Shown: positions 1 to 62,249 of the stretch, one piece after another
Position numbering within the stretch: position 1 is the first letter of the stretch
Layout: the number at the start of each line of letters is the position of its first letter
From: Rubripirellula amarantea
GTDB taxonomy: Bacteria > Planctomycetota > Planctomycetia > Pirellulales > Pirellulaceae
NCBI RefSeq assembly: GCF_007859865.1
Contig: NZ_SJPI01000002.1
Coordinates: 1,508,721 to 1,572,720, forward strand
Direction of reading: 5' to 3'
Length of the DNA stretch: 64,000 nt
Made by a program: the position numbers and the translations under genes
The notes under the pieces: generated by a model
Told to the model about the DNA's origin: nothing
Database searches by the model: none
What the model saw: the letters and a program-made list of their open reading frames with translations, nothing else

Positions 1-1509
1 TTTGATCGCAAGATCCCGTGACTTACTCCTTGGCATATTAGCGATCGCGTTAGAGTCACCCGAGGTCGTTTCCCTATGAGCCTGCGGCAACGCAGTGGTA
101 CCTGCCGTCACGCTGACATCAACGTTGCCGTTCGAATCGACAATCGCCGACGAATTTTCGGGCAGCGAAATACGGTTCACACTTCCATCGGAACGTTGAA
201 TCGTTAACCAAGTTCCCAATAGCAGTCCAACGGGAATACCACCGGCCGCCAAAGCAACCAGCAGCCAACGCGATGGCCAAGACTCATCGGAACGGGAATT
301 TATGTTTGCGTTCGGCTGGCTAAACGCATGATGTTGGAGTGGCCCAACCGTGCGAGCAAATTGAACTAGCTTAGCCAGATCAGCCTGATGGGCGAGCGGT
401 TGCAAGGCTAGAGATACGTCCTGAGCCGACGATGGGCGATCAGCGCGGTCCTTGGCAACCAATCCTTCGATGATCGCTGAAAGCTGAGACGATCTTCCTC
501 GAAACGGATCAGGCACCGTGATTGGATCAGGCGAAACGTGGGCGGTCAGCTTAGCGAAGTTCGTGGCGTGATTTGCATCATCGTAAGGTGCCGAACCAGT
601 CAGTAGTTTCAGCAGTGTACAACCGAGGGAATAAAGATCCGAACGAATGTCAACGTCACGCGCATCGTGAATTTGTTCCGGCGACATGTAGTCGGCCGTT
701 CCAAGCGCCAATCCAGTTGCCGTACCATCAACCTGCGATCCTTGCGTCAACTGAAACCGAGCTAGTCCGAGATCAAGCAGCTTCACCTCTCCATCGCGAT
801 TGAGCATGATGTTCGACGGCTTGACGTCGCGATGCACGAGACCGTTTCGGTTAGCATACTCAAGTGCTGCGGCAACGGCTCGGCCGATCGCGGCAACGGC
901 TTCAGGCGACAACGGACCGAGCCGTTGCACAATCTGGCTGAGGTCTAGTCCGTCGACGTACTCCATGATCAACACGGGTTGACCGCTAAGTTCACGCGCG
1001 TCCAAGGCCGAGACGATGTTAGGATGGCTGAGTTGCCCAAGTGCCCGCATCTCCGCTTCAAAGCGCTGAGTTGCTCGCTTATCAGATAAGCGTTTGCCCG
1101 AAATGATTTTGACGGCGACGTCGCGTCCCAATCGAAGGTGCTCGGCTCGATAAACAATGCCCATCCCGCCATGTGCGACCGCATCGAGCAGTCGGTAGTC
1201 ACCCAAATCCATGGGCAATGCGAACGGCTCGGCGTGAGGATCATCGTCCTTGTCACGGTTAATCGCTCCCAACGCCAACGAAGTGGCCCAGTCACAGTCG
1301 GGTTCCTCCATGAATGGGTTGGCGGATTCCGATTGTCGCAACTGCTGAAGCAACGAATCGCTCGAGTCGGATTCGATCTTCGCCAGTTTTCCCCGACATT
1401 CCTCACACTGTTGAACATGCTCGACCACTGGCGATTCTTGAAGCTCACCGAGCCGGCCATGGACCAGATCAACCAGTGTTTCGTCGGACGGACATAAAGA
1501 AACTTGCAT
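1..1509 (-). CDS. Membrane Ser/Thr protein kinase with N-terminal anti-sigma-like zinc motif (C-terminus beyond window)
   Basis: The reading frame is open from an ATG at 1509 to the window edge, giving 503 residues without a stop. An H-x3-C-x2-C motif (H31, C35, C38) resembles the zinc-binding anti-sigma fold. A Hanks-type kinase domain follows at about 103-372: glycine loop HGGMGIV, Lys134 in VAVKII, HRDVKPSN with Asp228, DLG with Asp246, and the SPEQ activation segment end. One membrane helix lies at about 415-437, followed by an extracytoplasmic part that runs off the window. It sits 74 bp downstream of an ECF sigma factor on the same strand, the usual arrangement for planctomycete sigma/kinase pairs. 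I infer that it controls that sigma factor by binding, phosphorylation or both. Kinase assignment is firm; the zinc-finger role is inference. Confidence 0.93.
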   Translation of the reverse strand, partial: MQVSLCPSDETLVDLVHGRLGELQESPVVEHVQQCEECRGKLAKIESDSSDSLLQQLRQSESANPFMEEPDCDWATSLALGAINRDKDDDPHAEPFALPMDLGDYRLLDAVAHGGMGIVYRAEHLRLGRDVAVKIISGKRLSDKRATQRFEAEMRALGQLSHPNIVSALDARELSGQPVLIMEYVDGLDLSQIVQRLGPLSPEAVAAIGRAVAAALEYANRNGLVHRDVKPSNIMLNRDGEVKLLDLGLARFQLTQGSQVDGTATGLALGTADYMSPEQIHDARDVDIRSDLYSLGCTLLKLLTGSAPYDDANHATNFAKLTAHVSPDPITVPDPFRGRSSQLSAIIEGLVAKDRADRPSSAQDVSLALQPLAHQADLAKLVQFARTVGPLQHHAFSQPNANINSRSDESWPSRWLLVALAAGGIPVGLLLGTWLTIQRSDGSVNRISLPENSSAIVDSNGNVDVSVTAGTTALPQAHRETTSGDSNAIANMPRSKSRDLAIK

Positions 1510-17327: not shown

Positions 17328-20027
17328 TTAGACATCCATCGTCTTGTCGATCCACGTTTTCCATTCGCTTATTTCCTGAGCCGATAAGTTCGGTTCGGGA
17401 AGCGGCGACAACTTTGTGCTGGCGTGGACCGATGCAGTGTTGGACTTTGTGCTTGAAACCGGCATTGGGGCGCGGACGGTTAGTAACCCGTTGACATTCA
17501 CTTCGAAGCCAATCGTGCGAGTTCGTTGGTCGCCCGCCCCTGACCCAACGTCGAGATCATAGCGTCCGAGCGTTTGCCAGTTGTCATCTTTGACGCCGGC
17601 GGATTCCACCAACGACACAGTCATCGATTCACGTTTAGAACTTGCGGTTAGACGTCGATTGGTGCGGGCGGGCAACAACGTGCCCTTGGGAATGATCGGC
17701 AAGATCCGGCGACGACCCTTCGCGTCCTCGACCAGGATCCCAATCGAATGGCTCGTCACCGTGCGCGGAGGCATCATGATGTCACTACGCCCGGGTAGTT
17801 CCGAGGCCAAGCAAGCCGCCGCCCCTCGTGCCACGTCCGCGCGATCGATCGACTGCATTTCGATGTCCTGAATCGCTTCAGGCAAGACTCGTTCGCGGAC
17901 CTGCTTGATCCGCAGCAGCGCCCCTAGCGACGCACACAGGTCGATCTCACTGGGGTCTACCGAAGCTTCTTTACAACACGTTTCGATTGCCTGACCGACC
18001 GCTTCCATCAAGTCCAAGCAGGATGCCAACCAAACCGATCTGTCGACTGTGACCGATACCGGTTTGCCTTTCATCGTGATCGCGATGCTGGTCGACGTCA
18101 TCAACAACATGGCGTTCATCGCCTTCTCGCATTCGATCTGCAATTGCGTCGCGGAATGAATACTCTTCTTCGGATTGACGCCTGTTTGTTCTTTGATCAG
18201 CTCCGCAGCGATATCAACGAGTCGCTGCAGCCAAGGAAGGCTCCCTTGCAACCAATGTCCTGCGGTTGAAAGCTGCTGCAGCCGCAATGCACTGCGTCGA
18301 ATCAGCGCGACCTCCGTTGCCGATCCCGTCACCGAGATAAACAGGATCGTCTCGTTCTTGTCCTGAGACACAGTCAAACGTGGCTCTGAATCGTTCGATG
18401 GCGACTCTTGATCTGCGGTTGTCGATGGTTCGACCGTCGACTCAGAAATGGAAAGCGATTGGACCGCAGCAATGGATCGATCAACGATCCGAACCGAACT
18501 GAAGCCCGCCAATTCGGCCGCCTGCGAAATGCTGCGACGATGCAATTGGTCGTAACTCGACGGTACCGTAATCGCAGTCGCATGCGGTGCAGGACCTTTG
18601 TAGGACGAGTCCGACAGCATTCGCTTCATCAACATTGCCAACAAAACTTCCGGCGGACATTGCCGGCTCGCGACGCTTCGGTTGACCAGCTTATTGCCGA
18701 TGTACATGTGAACGCAGTGCACCATCGCCTGGGGTGATCGTGCGCGTAGGTCCATTGCGTCGGCATCAAATACCAAACCCGGGTTACTAGCGATGGCCAT
18801 CCGAAATAGCCGATGGCCGTCGCGTCCAGGCGCTAGCGAAGTGATCGTCCCATCGGGCGACGAAACCGCGATCGACGCGTACTGCATCCCAAAGTCGATT
18901 CCCAGCACGGTAGCAGTCGCGCCGGAGGTTGATCCGCCTGACACGGTCGACAAGTCAGGCCTGGATTGACGCTGCGCAAACTCGGCGAGCCAATTGGGCG
19001 TGTCCGATTCGCTGGCATAATTCCCCAGGTCGTCGATCACCTCGTCAAGCGAAGCGTATCGCTGGTCCGGCGACTTTGCCATCATCCGCGAAAAGATATT
19101 GGCAAAGTTCAAGTCGACGTCGTCGCGAGCTTGCATCAGATCAGGGATTTCGCCATGACGATGGCCGTAAACCTGATCCAAGTATTCACCCGTGAACGGT
19201 GGGTTGGCCGTCAACAAGAAATACAGCGTTGCGCCGAGCGAATAAATGTCACTTCGCGAATCGACGTTGTCAGGATCTTCAAGTTGTTCGGGTGACATGA
19301 ACGGCAACGTACCAATCAAGCGGCCACGAGTTGCGGACTTTGATTCGGGATCGGACGGTTCTTGGGGATCGCTGTTAGAATTTAGCGCCACGTTTTGCAT
19401 TTGAGCCAAACCTAGGTCCAACACTTTCACAGTGCCGTCTTTGGACCGCATCAGGTTCCCCGGTTTGACGTCACGGTGAACAATTCCACTGCGATGAGCA
19501 TGCAGTAAACCGAGGGCGGCTTGCCGAATGGTTGCGGCAGCCTCACCAACGCTCATTGGCCCGCTTCCGCTGATGACCTGAGTTAGCGTCATTCCGTCGA
19601 CGTACTCCATTGCCAAGAAGTGAACGACCCCGAACTCTTCGGATTCCACTTCCCCAGCGTCGAACGCAGCAACAATATTGGGATGCAACAATCGCGACGC
19701 CGCTCGCACTTCGGCATAGAAGCGAGCCACCGCGTCTTCGTTGTCCATTCGCTCGATGGGCAACATTTTGATGGCAACGATTCGCTGCATACGGACATGT
19801 TCGGCCAGGTAGACGTTGCCCATGCCGCCCGAGCCAATCAACCCTCGCAATTCGTAATCACCGATGCGTTTAGGAGTATCGCCAAAATCATTCTTAGTGG
19901 CCTTGAGATTCGCCGACAAATCAAAGCCGTCAAAATCGCAAAAGTCCGCTTCGGAACCTGATATCCCGGAAAAATCCCGGGTAGGTTCTTCGGAGATCGG
20001 CAGCGATTCTTCAGAAAAATCGGTCAC
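17328..20027 (-). CDS. Ser/Thr protein kinase fused to a degenerate Hsp70
   Basis: The 899-residue protein has two known folds in one chain. A kinase domain spans about 57-338: IGSGGMGNVY, Lys87 in VAIKML, HRDVKPGN with Asp186, DLG with Asp204, SPEQ. From about 374 it follows Hsp70: GIDFGMQYASIAV (phosphate 1 region), ATAITVPSSYDQLHRRSISQ, AAELAGFSSVRIVDRSIAA, and LGALLRIKQV (adenosine region) near 700. A beta-type substrate-binding part at about 755-855 contains SIGILVED, LGRYDLDV and FEVNVNGLLTV. The DLGGGT phosphate-2 loop is replaced by SVTGSA near 565, so the ATPase is probably weak or dead. The helical lid is absent. No membrane segment is seen. The kinase may use the Hsp70 part to recognise unfolded or peptide ligands. 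Confidence 0.92.
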   Translation of the reverse strand: MTDFSEESLPISEEPTRDFSGISGSEADFCDFDGFDLSANLKATKNDFGDTPKRIGDYELRGLIGSGGMGNVYLAEHVRMQRIVAIKMLPIERMDNEDAVARFYAEVRAASRLLHPNIVAAFDAGEVESEEFGVVHFLAMEYVDGMTLTQVISGSGPMSVGEAAATIRQAALGLLHAHRSGIVHRDVKPGNLMRSKDGTVKVLDLGLAQMQNVALNSNSDPQEPSDPESKSATRGRLIGTLPFMSPEQLEDPDNVDSRSDIYSLGATLYFLLTANPPFTGEYLDQVYGHRHGEIPDLMQARDDVDLNFANIFSRMMAKSPDQRYASLDEVIDDLGNYASESDTPNWLAEFAQRQSRPDLSTVSGGSTSGATATVLGIDFGMQYASIAVSSPDGTITSLAPGRDGHRLFRMAIASNPGLVFDADAMDLRARSPQAMVHCVHMYIGNKLVNRSVASRQCPPEVLLAMLMKRMLSDSSYKGPAPHATAITVPSSYDQLHRRSISQAAELAGFSSVRIVDRSIAAVQSLSISESTVEPSTTADQESPSNDSEPRLTVSQDKNETILFISVTGSATEVALIRRSALRLQQLSTAGHWLQGSLPWLQRLVDIAAELIKEQTGVNPKKSIHSATQLQIECEKAMNAMLLMTSTSIAITMKGKPVSVTVDRSVWLASCLDLMEAVGQAIETCCKEASVDPSEIDLCASLGALLRIKQVRERVLPEAIQDIEMQSIDRADVARGAAACLASELPGRSDIMMPPRTVTSHSIGILVEDAKGRRRILPIIPKGTLLPARTNRRLTASSKRESMTVSLVESAGVKDDNWQTLGRYDLDVGSGAGDQRTRTIGFEVNVNGLLTVRAPMPVSSTKSNTASVHASTKLSPLPEPNLSAQEISEWKTWIDKTMDV

Positions 20028-20172
20028 GCGGTTGGATCACAAAGAGTGTTAAGAAAGTGACGGGCGAGATGCACGGGCGAGAAAAGGTGTTTACGTGCCG
20101 CTAGACAGAAAAGGTTCTGCCTGCTGAAATTCTAGCATAAACCTTTGAGTGTACCCCTCGCGAAAGCTATTT

Positions 20173-21087
20173 ATGAAGACGCCCATTCGCATTGCCACGC
20201 GCCAGAGCCCACTTGCGCTGTGGCAGGCCGAATTTGTGGCCAGCCAGCTAAATCAGCAAGGTATCGAATCAATTCTCGTTCCGTTGGTTAGCGGTGGCGA
20301 TGTGGACATGGCCCCCATCGATGGCACGCGACAGGTTGGGGTATTTACCAAGCGAATTCAGCAAGCCTTGGCTGATGACGAAGCGGATGTGGCTGTTCAC
20401 TCGCTCAAGGACCTGCCCACGGAAATTAACGAGCATTTTCGCCTGGCCGCCGTACCAACCCGAGAGACCGTTGCAGATTGTCTTGTGTCCCCTTCGAGCA
20501 TGTCGATCGCCGAACTGCCTGCCAGCGCTAAGGTGGGCACCGGCAGCCGCCGACGAGCCGCCCAGTTGTTATCGCTCCGCAGTGATCTGGATGTCCAACC
20601 CATTCGTGGGAATGTCCAAACGAGACTGTCGAAACTGGAGTCCCAAGAATTCGACGCGATCATGCTCGCTGACGCAGGAATCGTGCGTCTGGAAATGAAC
20701 GATTTACCGCGATACCACTGCACGCTTGAAGAAATGCTTCCTGCGCCGGGTCAAGGCGCCTTGGGGATCGAGGTCCGCAGTGATGACGACGACGCGTATG
20801 AAGCGCTGCAGTTCCTAAACCATCGCGATACTCGGATTTCCGTTGTTGCTGAACGAGCATTGTTAGCGCGATTGCATGGGGGATGTCTTGCACCCATCGG
20901 AGCGTACGCCGTCATCGAAGATGGACGACTGAAGATGTCAGCCGTCGTGTTGTCGCAAGATGGCCTGACCCGACTAGATGAACAGGGTGAGATTGACGCA
21001 ATTGATGAGTCATCCGCACTGGAATTGGCGGCTCAATTGAGTGAGCGATTGATCGAAAGAGGCGCAGCCGAATTAATTGTTCGCTAA
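20173..21087 (+). CDS. hemC: Hydroxymethylbilane synthase (porphobilinogen deaminase)
   Basis: It polymerises four porphobilinogen units to hydroxymethylbilane in tetrapyrrole synthesis. The 304-residue protein shows [67 protein letters not shown], and [13 protein letters not shown], whose Cys238 carries the dipyrromethane cofactor. The ATG at 20173 fits the family start; the frame is open to a GTG at 20149. No other haem gene is next to it. It is divergent from the kinase-Hsp70 gene and is followed by a structured RNA with its own terminator. Confidence 0.96.
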
Positions 21088-59656: not shown

Positions 59657-60041
59657 TCCATGGATAGTTGATCGACTGATCTTGTTGTGTCTTAAGATCA
59701 GTCCGCAACGAAGAGCTTTCCCAAACCAAGCCTACAACTAGTCGCCGTGACTCGAACTGCGGCCCTTCGCAACCAGGTCAGACCAACCCAGAAAACGCAG
59801 TGGCCCCCCCCATTTCGACATCTACTAGCAAGAGCGTGAGGAACGTGAAGGATCAACAGCCTGCCTCTCAACGCCCCCCCGAGATACGGCGGTCATCGCG
59901 ACAGGCACATCCCTAACCCGTGGAGAACCCTAGTGCGCTCACAGGTAATGGTCTGATTGTTTTAGGATCGCACCAGGAGCCCGGTTGTCGCTAAACTCAT
60001 TGAGCCTATCGACTCCCATTCCTTTGAGCGATTTCTACCTC
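59657..60041. other. Intergenic with one hairpin
   Basis: 385 bp after the DUF547 gene. A perfect 10-bp stem (GACTGATCTT, 59674-59683 with 59694-59703) without a T-tract follows the DUF547 stop. The rest is unremarkable and should hold the kinase promoter. Confidence 0.5.
59674..59703 (+). terminator. Hairpin after the DUF547 gene
   Basis: Perfect 10-bp inverted repeat with a 10-base loop, 17 bp after the stop codon. The missing T-run makes it a weak terminator at best. Confidence 0.45.
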
Positions 60042-62249
60042 ATGTCGTCGCAAGAACCGTTTCCGTTGCCCAAGATCTTTGATTCACAAACGATCACTCA
60101 CGAACTTAGCGATAGTTTGTTGGGTGCGATTCAACGGAATCCTCGACTTGAGAAAAGACTTGGTCAAATGCCTGCGGATGAGAAGACCATCGCGTGGTCG
60201 TCCGATTCGGTAGATGATTTCTCGCACCCGGACTTGGATCTGGACCTCAGCACATCCACCCCGGTGATGTCGCCGAGTGATTTATCGGAAACCGTGGACT
60301 TTAGCGTCGACGAACCGGTGCCCACAACCTTGCCCATCGATATGGGTTTCGTACCGCTGCGTCAGATCACCAGCGTAGGTAGCGGAAGTCGCGACGATGC
60401 CGACTATCGCTTGGTGGGAAAACTGGGTGCCGGCGGTACCGCGGTCGTGTTCCAGGCTCACCAACGAGCCGTTGATCGTGAAGTCGCCGTGAAGATGCTC
60501 CGTAGTGAACTCGCCCTTAAGCCGACTTCTCGAGAACGCTTCCTCACCGAGGCTCGCGTGATTGGTGGGCTGGATCACCCTAACGTGATTGCCTTGCATG
60601 AGGTTTACGCCGATCAAGACGGTTCGCTGTTCTATTCAATGAAGCGAATTGACGGAACGAGTTGGGATAAGCAAATAGGCGAATATACGCTCGACCAGAA
60701 TATCGAAACCTTATTTCGGGTGGCCGATGCGATTCGATACGCTCACTCGCGTGGCTTGATTCACCGCGATATCAAACCCGAGAATGTTATGCTCGGACGT
60801 TTCGGTGAAGTGCTGTTGGCCGATTGGGGTTTGGCGATTCATCACCTCGAACAGAGCTCGAACGCTGAAGCAAGTCGTTCGATCGGCGGCACACCAGCGT
60901 ACATGGCGCCCGAACTTGCCAGCGCGGCGGCCGGCTCGATCACTTTTCAAACAGACGTCTACCTGCTCGGCGCTATTCTTTACCAAATACTTACGGGGTA
61001 TCCGCCACATCGTGGCGAGAGTCTGTTGGAATGCATCGTGGCCGCATCCAATAACGTCATCGAACCATCCGAGATCGAAGGTGAGATGATGGAAATTGCG
61101 ATGAAGGCGATGGCGACCGATCCAAAGAATCGGTTCCATGATGTCGACGAATTCGTGGCCGCGATCAAGAATCAACGTAAGCACGAACAGAGTCAACGAT
61201 TGGTACGACGTGCCGTTCGTCGCGTCGAAGGCATGGATAACTCCGATCACAATGGTGACGTCTACCGTGACTTCGGCATCGCCGATGCACTGCTGGCTGA
61301 AGCTATCGAAGAATGGCCTGAAAATGAAAAAGCCCACGTTACCCGCAAACGTTTGCAACTTAAACTCGCTGCGATTGCAACCGAACGAGGCGACTATGAC
61401 TTGGCCGCCAACTTGTACGAAGCCGCCGGTGAAGGTGAATCGGATGAGGCCGAGATGGTGCAGTTCCACCGCATGCGACGCGATGCTAGCCAGCAACAAG
61501 TGTCTCGTTACTCGGTATTGTTCACTCAGTCGCCCGACCCAGGTTTGCTGGTGCAGATGAAGTCAGCCAAGATCGTCGAAGCAAACCTAGCTTTCGCAGA
61601 AATGTTTGGCTATTCCGGCGACGAAGTTGTCGGTCAACGTATTAGCGACCTAAATCTTTGGGTCAGCACCGAATGTCAAAAGAAATTAGTCGAAGCGGTC
61701 AAACGTGATGGCAGTGTGGATGACTTTGGCGCCGAGTTGCTGCACACCGATGGGCATCACATCGACGTTTTGATCAATGCGCGAATCGTCGAAGTGCTCG
61801 GCGAGACGATGTTGCTTTCGACAATGCGCGACATTTCGCTTCGCAAAAAAGCCGAACGTGAACTCAAGGCAAGTCAATCAAGATTGCGTGACTTGCAACG
61901 GATGGCGGGCCTCGCAACTTGGTCTTACGACGTAGAGTCGCAGAAGGTGAAGTGGAATAACGAAGCCTTCCTGTTAGCCGGACGATCGCTTGATGAGGGA
62001 ACGCCCACTCGCGAAGAATTGTTCGAAATGGTTCACCCCGACGATCGAGCTCGTTTGCAAGAAGCACTTGAGCTAGCGATCCAAACGGGCGCTGCCTATG
62101 AGCTTTCGGTACGTCAACGTGGCGGCGACGGCGAATACGTTTGGGTCAGGGTGCGTGGACAACCTATCCTTAACGAGTCCGGGAAGGCCGTCGAGGTCTT
62201 TGGCGTGTTCATGGAACGACCGCAACGCAGTAAGCCCCGTGATACCTAA
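60042..62249 (+). CDS. Ser/Thr protein kinase with two C-terminal PAS domains
   Basis: The roughly 735-residue cytoplasmic protein has an acidic N-terminal region. Its kinase domain spans about 121-385: GAGGTAVVF, Lys151 in VAVKML, HRDIKPEN with Asp243, DWG with Asp261 in place of DFG, MAPEL. A helical TPR-like segment lies at about 395-475. Two PAS domains follow: about 480-590 (FTQSPDPGLLVQM, FAEMFGYSGDEVVGQRISDL, MRDISLRKKAE) and about 605-725 (MAGLATWSYDVE, MVHPDDR, EYVWVRVRGQPIL). PAS domains after a eukaryotic-type kinase suggest redox, light or ligand sensing. ATG at 60042 is preferred; the frame is open to TTG at 59985. There is no membrane segment. Confidence 0.92.
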   Translation: MSSQEPFPLPKIFDSQTITHELSDSLLGAIQRNPRLEKRLGQMPADEKTIAWSSDSVDDFSHPDLDLDLSTSTPVMSPSDLSETVDFSVDEPVPTTLPIDMGFVPLRQITSVGSGSRDDADYRLVGKLGAGGTAVVFQAHQRAVDREVAVKMLRSELALKPTSRERFLTEARVIGGLDHPNVIALHEVYADQDGSLFYSMKRIDGTSWDKQIGEYTLDQNIETLFRVADAIRYAHSRGLIHRDIKPENVMLGRFGEVLLADWGLAIHHLEQSSNAEASRSIGGTPAYMAPELASAAAGSITFQTDVYLLGAILYQILTGYPPHRGESLLECIVAASNNVIEPSEIEGEMMEIAMKAMATDPKNRFHDVDEFVAAIKNQRKHEQSQRLVRRAVRRVEGMDNSDHNGDVYRDFGIADALLAEAIEEWPENEKAHVTRKRLQLKLAAIATERGDYDLAANLYEAAGEGESDEAEMVQFHRMRRDASQQQVSRYSVLFTQSPDPGLLVQMKSAKIVEANLAFAEMFGYSGDEVVGQRISDLNLWVSTECQKKLVEAVKRDGSVDDFGAELLHTDGHHIDVLINARIVEVLGETMLLSTMRDISLRKKAERELKASQSRLRDLQRMAGLATWSYDVESQKVKWNNEAFLLAGRSLDEGTPTREELFEMVHPDDRARLQEALELAIQTGAAYELSVRQRGGDGEYVWVRVRGQPILNESGKAVEVFGVFMERPQRSKPRDT

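Follow-up and report, generated by a model that had tools for sequence, protein, structure and literature searches.

In the 64,000-nucleotide stretch of the Rubripirellula amarantea genome analysed here (the window; the genome comprises 6.9 Mb in 9 contigs), a single gene joins a Hanks-type Ser/Thr kinase to an Hsp70 module in which, judged from aligned positions, the residues needed for ATP hydrolysis are missing. This loss is fixed across a clade of orthologues and is no local accident. Furthermore, the ATPase-dead module is maintained by purifying selection. With moderate confidence we read the product as a soluble kinase that would carry a nucleotide-independent pseudo-Hsp70 as a docking or regulatory module.

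The gene spans positions 17328 to 20027 of the minus strand, with 899 codons without a stop and a GTG start at 20027; plus-strand frame 1 across the same interval contains many stops and is not open. The first-pass annotation, made from the sequence alone, had proposed one uninterrupted 899-residue frame with an intact kinase followed by an Hsp70 part, and all of this was borne out. The Pfam model Pkinase matched residues 58-325 (7.2e-41) and HSP70 residues 437-874 (5.8e-30; 104.5 bits with a cut-off of 20.6). Six further matches up to E 1 comprised the actin-like model MreB and, otherwise, weaker models of kinase type. The features are as follows (pLDDT, predicted local distance difference test).

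17328..20027, minus strand: whole gene, kinase and pseudo-Hsp70, 899 aa (stop codon 17328-17330, GTG start 20027; orthologues)
19008..19880, minus strand: Hanks-type Ser/Thr kinase domain, PknB-like, about residues 50-340 (Lys87, Asp186, Asp204)
18915..19007, minus strand: kinase-Hsp70 linker, about residues 341-371 (pLDDT <50 at 351-369)
17769..18914, minus strand: pseudo nucleotide-binding domain (NBD), about residues 372-753 (GIDFGM, Lys70 lost, E171 replaced by R517, SVTGSA)
17460..17768, minus strand: beta substrate-binding domain (SBD-beta), about residues 754-856, from sequence and model
17331..17381, minus strand: C-terminal helix, residues 883-899, with W889 and W892; counterpart of the first lid helix, the other lid helices missing
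20028..20172, no strand: divergent intergenic region of 145 bases, common to the kinase gene and hemC
20173..21087, plus strand: hemC (hydroxymethylbilane synthase), head-to-head neighbour, named by reading its sequence, not by family search

For the residue census we aligned 38 rows (the window protein and 37 orthologues), 13 rows of a degenerate sister clade, seven rows with intact loops and two references, all in DnaK numbering. The phosphate 1 and phosphate 2 loops of the window protein read GIDFGM and SVTGSA, where the DnaK of the same genome has GIDLGTT and DLGGGT, as the earlier annotation had noted for DnaK in general. Out of six ATPase residues (D8, T11, K70, E171, D194 and T199) only D8 is kept, and the protein is not an Hsp70 ATPase by these residues. 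The catalytic E171 is replaced by arginine in all 38 rows (R517 in the window protein) and by lysine (12) or arginine (1) in the sister clade. K70 is replaced by P (26), M (5), H (3), Q (3) or A (1) in the 38 rows and by Q in all 13 sister rows; T11 by M (35), A (2) or L (1); and D194 by G (22), S (12), C (2), A (1) or T (1). At T199 we found A (29), G (4), T (3) and S (2), a replacement in 35 rows. Only one row has glycine at G198, and G342 is replaced as well. D8 (36/38), G197 (37/38) and G341 (36/38) are largely retained.

The loss of Glu171, Lys70 and Asp194 thus extends to 38/38 rows of the clade and 13/13 of its sister, in line with the earlier loop claim. In contrast, T11, K70, E171, D194, G198 and T199 are unchanged throughout the seven intact rows and two references, and a comparison of 26 standalone Hsp70 rows and nine intact-fusion rows showed intact ATPase loops without exception. 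Arg or Lys at the catalytic Glu171 in 51/51 rows is a reversal of charge, which looks unlike mere drift.

Selection on the dead module was estimated from the ratio of non-synonymous to synonymous substitution rates (dN/dS) in 14 close pairs. The values ranged from 0.026 to 0.209 for the NBD (11 computable pairs), from 0.005 to 0.363 for the SBD (11) and from 0.017 to 0.144 for the kinase (12); pairs with undefined dS (3, 3 and 2 of 14, respectively) were left out. Since dS exceeds 1 in many pairs the values are rough. However, none lies near 1, and on this basis the module is maintained.

The kinase half shows no comparable decay. Besides Lys87, Asp186 (HRD) and Asp204 (DLG) of the window protein, the Hanks-type motifs (Gly loop, catalytic Lys, alpha-C Glu, HRDxKxxN and D(F/L)G) were found in it and in 37/37 aligned orthologues, one of which has DMG instead of DLG. 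In loci L066 and L068 the N-terminal part of the kinase is missing from the frame read. Among the matches listed for this part the nearest solved structure is PknB (39% identity, root-mean-square deviation 1.3). The fold is like that of PknB of Mycobacterium tuberculosis and the Stk1 PASTA kinases, but the window protein has no Pfam match to a PASTA domain and no apparent membrane span (highest 19-residue hydropathy 1.15). The Stk1/PknB PASTA kinase model NF033483 matched the kinase part only, with 259.7 bits, below its cut-off of 450, so that the protein falls outside that family. Because no membrane span is apparent the protein is probably cytosolic. It differs in this from most planctomycete kinases, typically 70-80% of which reportedly contain transmembrane regions (PMC11032199, excerpt). 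Models of defence kinases, PD-T4-6 of PADLOC among them, gave 35 matches; the 25 listed are all confined to the kinase part (within residues 48-373).

A structure prediction past residue 370 had been proposed as a check, and an Hsp70 fold was found there: the AlphaFold2 model of the 899-residue protein has a predicted template modelling score (pTM) of 0.81. Together with the Pfam score it places the module within the NBD and SBD-beta fold of Hsp70. The modelled part superposes on the docked, ATP-form DnaK/BiP, and a docked, ATP-like arrangement of NBD and SBD is therefore the predicted one. The docking residues R151, R167 and L484, which are assigned to the interface or to allostery in ATP-bound DnaK (PMC4595643, excerpt), are each kept in 38/38 rows; the sister clade keeps R151 in 13/13 and has L (6), W (6) or V (1) at L484. 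The interdomain linker VLLLD is replaced in the window protein and the orthologues shown, as it is already altered in lidless intact relatives, and the alpha-helical lid is reduced to one helix, residues 883-898.

A close match is present in 39/149 genomes of the family, its own included (best E at or below 2.8e-79; the best of the next genome is 2.9e-47). An alignment scan of named genomes gave 49 loci, including Rhodopirellula baltica, Stieleria, Roseiconus, Roseimaritima and Aporhodopirellula; the same scan with a single protein as query gave none. At E 1e-70 matches occurred in 28 of 397 genomes of the class and 2 of 392 of the phylum, only within the taxonomic family of the window, in a search that scored three candidates per genome, could miss divergent sister-clade members and used sets overlapping the earlier ones. 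Twenty distant matches were fetched: 13 form the degenerate sister clade, six are fusions with intact loops (L066, L070-L074), and L069, considered as a possible fusion, was rejected as it has no kinase. Three further intact fusions (L168-L170) were found, L170 being from another family.

Of the 37 orthologues, 17 entered the trees along with the window protein. The Hsp70 tree unites the two degenerate clades with full support (100 in the Shimodaira-Hasegawa-like approximate likelihood-ratio test, SH-aLRT) on a long branch. In the kinase tree seven of the nine intact-fusion kinases are sister to the degenerate clades (96), and those of L072 and L170 lie elsewhere, so that the fusion probably arose more than once. 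Forcing the Hsp70 tree to hold the seven intact fusions and the degenerate clades together cost 7.55 log units, so that this grouping is neither rejected nor established (approximately unbiased test, p-AU 0.342). The ATPase loss looks derived, since the ATPase is intact in other kinase-Hsp70 fusions of this family. Probably it occurred once, in the common ancestor of the two sister clades, with an ancestral fusion to a once-active lidless Hsp70 perhaps as the source.

Besides a canonical DnaK (L001), the genome encodes two more Hsp70s, one of 599 residues (L002) and one of 514 residues with intact loops (L003), as well as a diverged relative of the fusion (L180/L208; L208:1501-4095, contig C1 from 415110). 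The latter has 865 aa, a kinase and a more eroded Hsp70-like tail (Pfam HSP70 13.3 bits, below the cut-off of 20.6). Loss of its SBD was considered and rejected, as the full frame ends in what reads as an SBD-like stretch. In a search of 60 family genomes at 1e-80, genome G006 was the only other one to give a match to it, namely the window gene's orthologue. In the trees it is represented by an 808-residue piece, whose branch is very long; the constrained comparison was made without it.

Several observations weigh against a docked, nucleotide-independent module. Substitutions occur at further interface positions: Y145 is S (18), C (18), I (1) or V (1), D148 is Q in all 38 rows, K155 is K in only four, D481 is N (28) or D (10), and R167 is Q in all 13 sister rows. 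Any lidless Hsp70 may come out docked in an AlphaFold2 model. At the centre of the pocket, V436 is M (18), L (7), P (4), Q (4), H (2), T (1), R (1) or K (1). With Asp8 and one or two of the loop glycines still in place, the module may bind nucleotide weakly. No part is less conserved than the NBD, whose median identity is 39.6% versus 61.9% for the kinase. Moreover, the intact fusions branch among standalone Hsp70s in the Hsp70 tree and do not group with the degenerate ones.

In the mechanism we favour, the pseudo-Hsp70 would sit in the modelled docked, ATP-like state without hydrolysis, and ATP would serve the kinase only. SBD-beta, the NBD surface or both may bind a protein, be it an exposed peptide, a co-chaperone or a dedicated partner, and occupancy of the module may activate the tethered kinase or bring its substrate close. 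The module may resemble, by analogy only, Ssz1 of the yeast ribosome-associated complex, likewise an Hsp70 fold without ATP hydrolysis and alpha lid but with SBD-beta, which still binds chains with low affinity by that domain; a sensor or docking role would therefore fit better than a folding role (PMC7083937, excerpt). Ssz1 differs in that it binds ATP, has a J-protein partner and a detached linker, and carries no kinase in its chain, whereas NBD and SBD of the window protein are modelled as docked (same excerpt).

An unlikely but serious alternative is the misfolding sensor of the first-pass annotation, in which SBD-beta binds exposed hydrophobic peptide and turns the kinase on, a proteostasis switch in one chain. 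The SBD-beta fold is retained and under selection, the pocket positions I401, I438 and V440 stay hydrophobic, and Ssz1 offers a possible precedent. However, F426 is L (31) or I (7), A429 varies, and the changes at V436, which include Pro, Gln, His, Arg and Lys, argue against conserved peptide binding of the DnaK type. Lid and VLLLD linker are lost as well, and no CIRCE heat-shock element within three mismatches occurs in the window. Hence the claim that the peptide-binding part keeps its pattern stands for the fold but not for V436, F426, VLLLD or the lid with its single helix; the idea of a chaperone fold reused as a kinase sensor is partly supported, and the pocket is only partly conserved. 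Three Ser/Thr kinases, one of them heat-induced, appear under RB numbers in a stress array of R. baltica (PMC2754498, excerpt); any of them may or may not be the window gene, so the array counts neither way.

Rather improbable, in our judgement, is a role as scaffold for a single dedicated partner, be it a co-chaperone, a J-protein, the ribosome or a metabolic client, without general peptide binding. The docking residues are invariant while the pocket drifts, and there are further invariants, namely C457, specific to the clade, and W817 and W892, shared with the sister clade. On the other hand, constant linkage to a partner gene is seen for hemC alone, which stands head-to-head with the kinase gene in 26 of the 33 testable named orthologous loci and is missing in seven. 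More doubtful still is an NBD that binds ATP without hydrolysis in the manner of Ssz1, its nucleotide occupancy, and thus the energy state, tuning the module. The fold is intact in the model and the retention of Asp8, G197 and G341 would suit this, but T11, K70, E171, D194, G342 and, in 35/38 rows, T199 are replaced, with a fixed Arg or Lys at E171.

There is only a slight chance of a one-chain stress kinase whose permanently docked, nucleotide-free pseudo-Hsp70 acts as sensor, achieving in a single polypeptide what HRI or IRE1 achieve by means of a separate Hsp70, and perhaps also reads the supply of haem or its precursors. This idea comes from the head-to-head hemC together with the pair Cys457-Pro458, invariant in 38/38 rows of the clade and present in only 1/23 other aligned rows. 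Pro458 is, however, inherited from Hsp70 and Cys457 alone is new, and HRI was still inhibited by haem after mutation of its Cys-Pro cysteine (PMC13181343, excerpt). That the Hsp70 part is an evolutionary relic carried behind the kinase is scarcely credible: the eroded second relative in the same genome would suit it, but dN/dS is well below 1 in every pair computed, the fold is confidently predicted and the gene is retained in 39 genomes.

The kinase-Hsp70 architecture itself is not new, as 'Kinase + HSP70' was listed for Pirellula sp. (gi|32474490), of the same bacterial group, in a 2005 survey of prokaryotic Ser/Thr kinases (PMC1262709, excerpt). That protein is probably an orthologue, because the R. 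baltica strain searched has one such fusion among seven Hsp70 matches. In the excerpt the entry mentions neither ATPase loss, conservation, docking nor hemC; what is added here is that loss and its fixation, together with the docked model and the link to hemC. In the open-licence literature, partly as excerpts, we found no description of a pseudo-chaperone covalently wired to a working kinase, the fusion itself appearing only in that survey, and nothing on the hemC link. The main text of the planctomycete kinase paper (PMC11032199) lacks the words Hsp70 and DnaK, and a paper on Hsp70 in conflict systems (PMC7159879, excerpt) does not concern this fusion.

Lidless intact Hsp70s and kinase fusions of Planctomycetota (L003; L066, L070-L074, L168-L170) share a like fold length, an altered linker in those shown and sometimes the same kinase type, but none has lost GIDLGTT, the Lys70 counterpart, NEP or DLGGGT. 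Pseudokinases are famous. Hsp110/Sse1 has a full lid and acts as an exchange factor, unlike the module described here. Kinase activity is tied to a separate Hsp70 in IRE1 and PERK, which are watched by BiP, without any claim of sequence kinship. The same applies to HRI, where the chaperone is likewise separate and no kinship is claimed (PMC13181343, excerpt). Intact and dismantled kinase-Hsp70 versions occur side by side in related bacteria, which makes the role of an Hsp70 fold in signalling without ATP cycling directly testable; the same comparison could show whether the docked state alone suffices for partner binding.

For the hemC count, five of 38 named loci with fewer than 500 bases upstream were left out (L081, L085, L090, L092, L094). 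In an overlapping set of long unnamed orthologous loci hemC was divergent in 15/20. It is absent beside the kinase gene in the Roseimaritima-type (g29), g39-type and g7-type lineages. The sister-clade and intact-fusion loci L056-L075 and L113-L123, several of which end shortly upstream, gave no hemC match; L168-L170 were not searched. A promoter common to hemC and the kinase gene is possible. Neither a sigma-70-like site nor a terminator was found in 19900-20300. The most frequent 7-base word occurred in 7 of 23 hemC-kinase intergenic stretches, equal to the block-shuffle maximum of 7; four of 27 stretches were too short and dropped. With no CIRCE element, sigma-70-like site or conserved intergenic word, heat-shock control of the kinase gene was rejected.

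A link to the adjoining type II secretion genes was rejected too, since none of the 11 other window neighbours was found beside orthologues; secretion-like genes near relatives were limited to gspE-like matches in L045 and one 27% gspF-like match in L059. No Rfam RNA element reached its gathering score across the window. In two g39-type loci without hemC (L098, L109) a gene read as a PP2C-like phosphatase lies tail-to-tail downstream of the kinase gene, a possible kinase-phosphatase pair. The kinase locus L048 carries a gene for an apparently FHA-like protein. The intact fusions L070 and L073 are both flanked by a divergent leuC-like gene on one side and a thiC-like gene on the other.

In R. 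maiorica SM1 the orthologue (L118:4831-7564; same gene as L028) is split into two overlapping frames, a break that may be genuine or stem from a sequencing error, and it was left out of the residue counts. Two sister-clade proteins (L062:5412-8942 and L064:8275-12027) carry two tandem kinase domains ahead of the pseudo-Hsp70. Adjoining pairs of Hsp70 genes with intact loops, 666-766 and 512-603 aa, were seen in other families of the order (L152, L154, L155, L156, L158, L160, L162). Finally, the window holds two more kinase genes, at about 1-1509 (minus strand) and 59985-62249 (plus strand), where the kinase query matched its own genome at C2:1509300 and C2:1569119.
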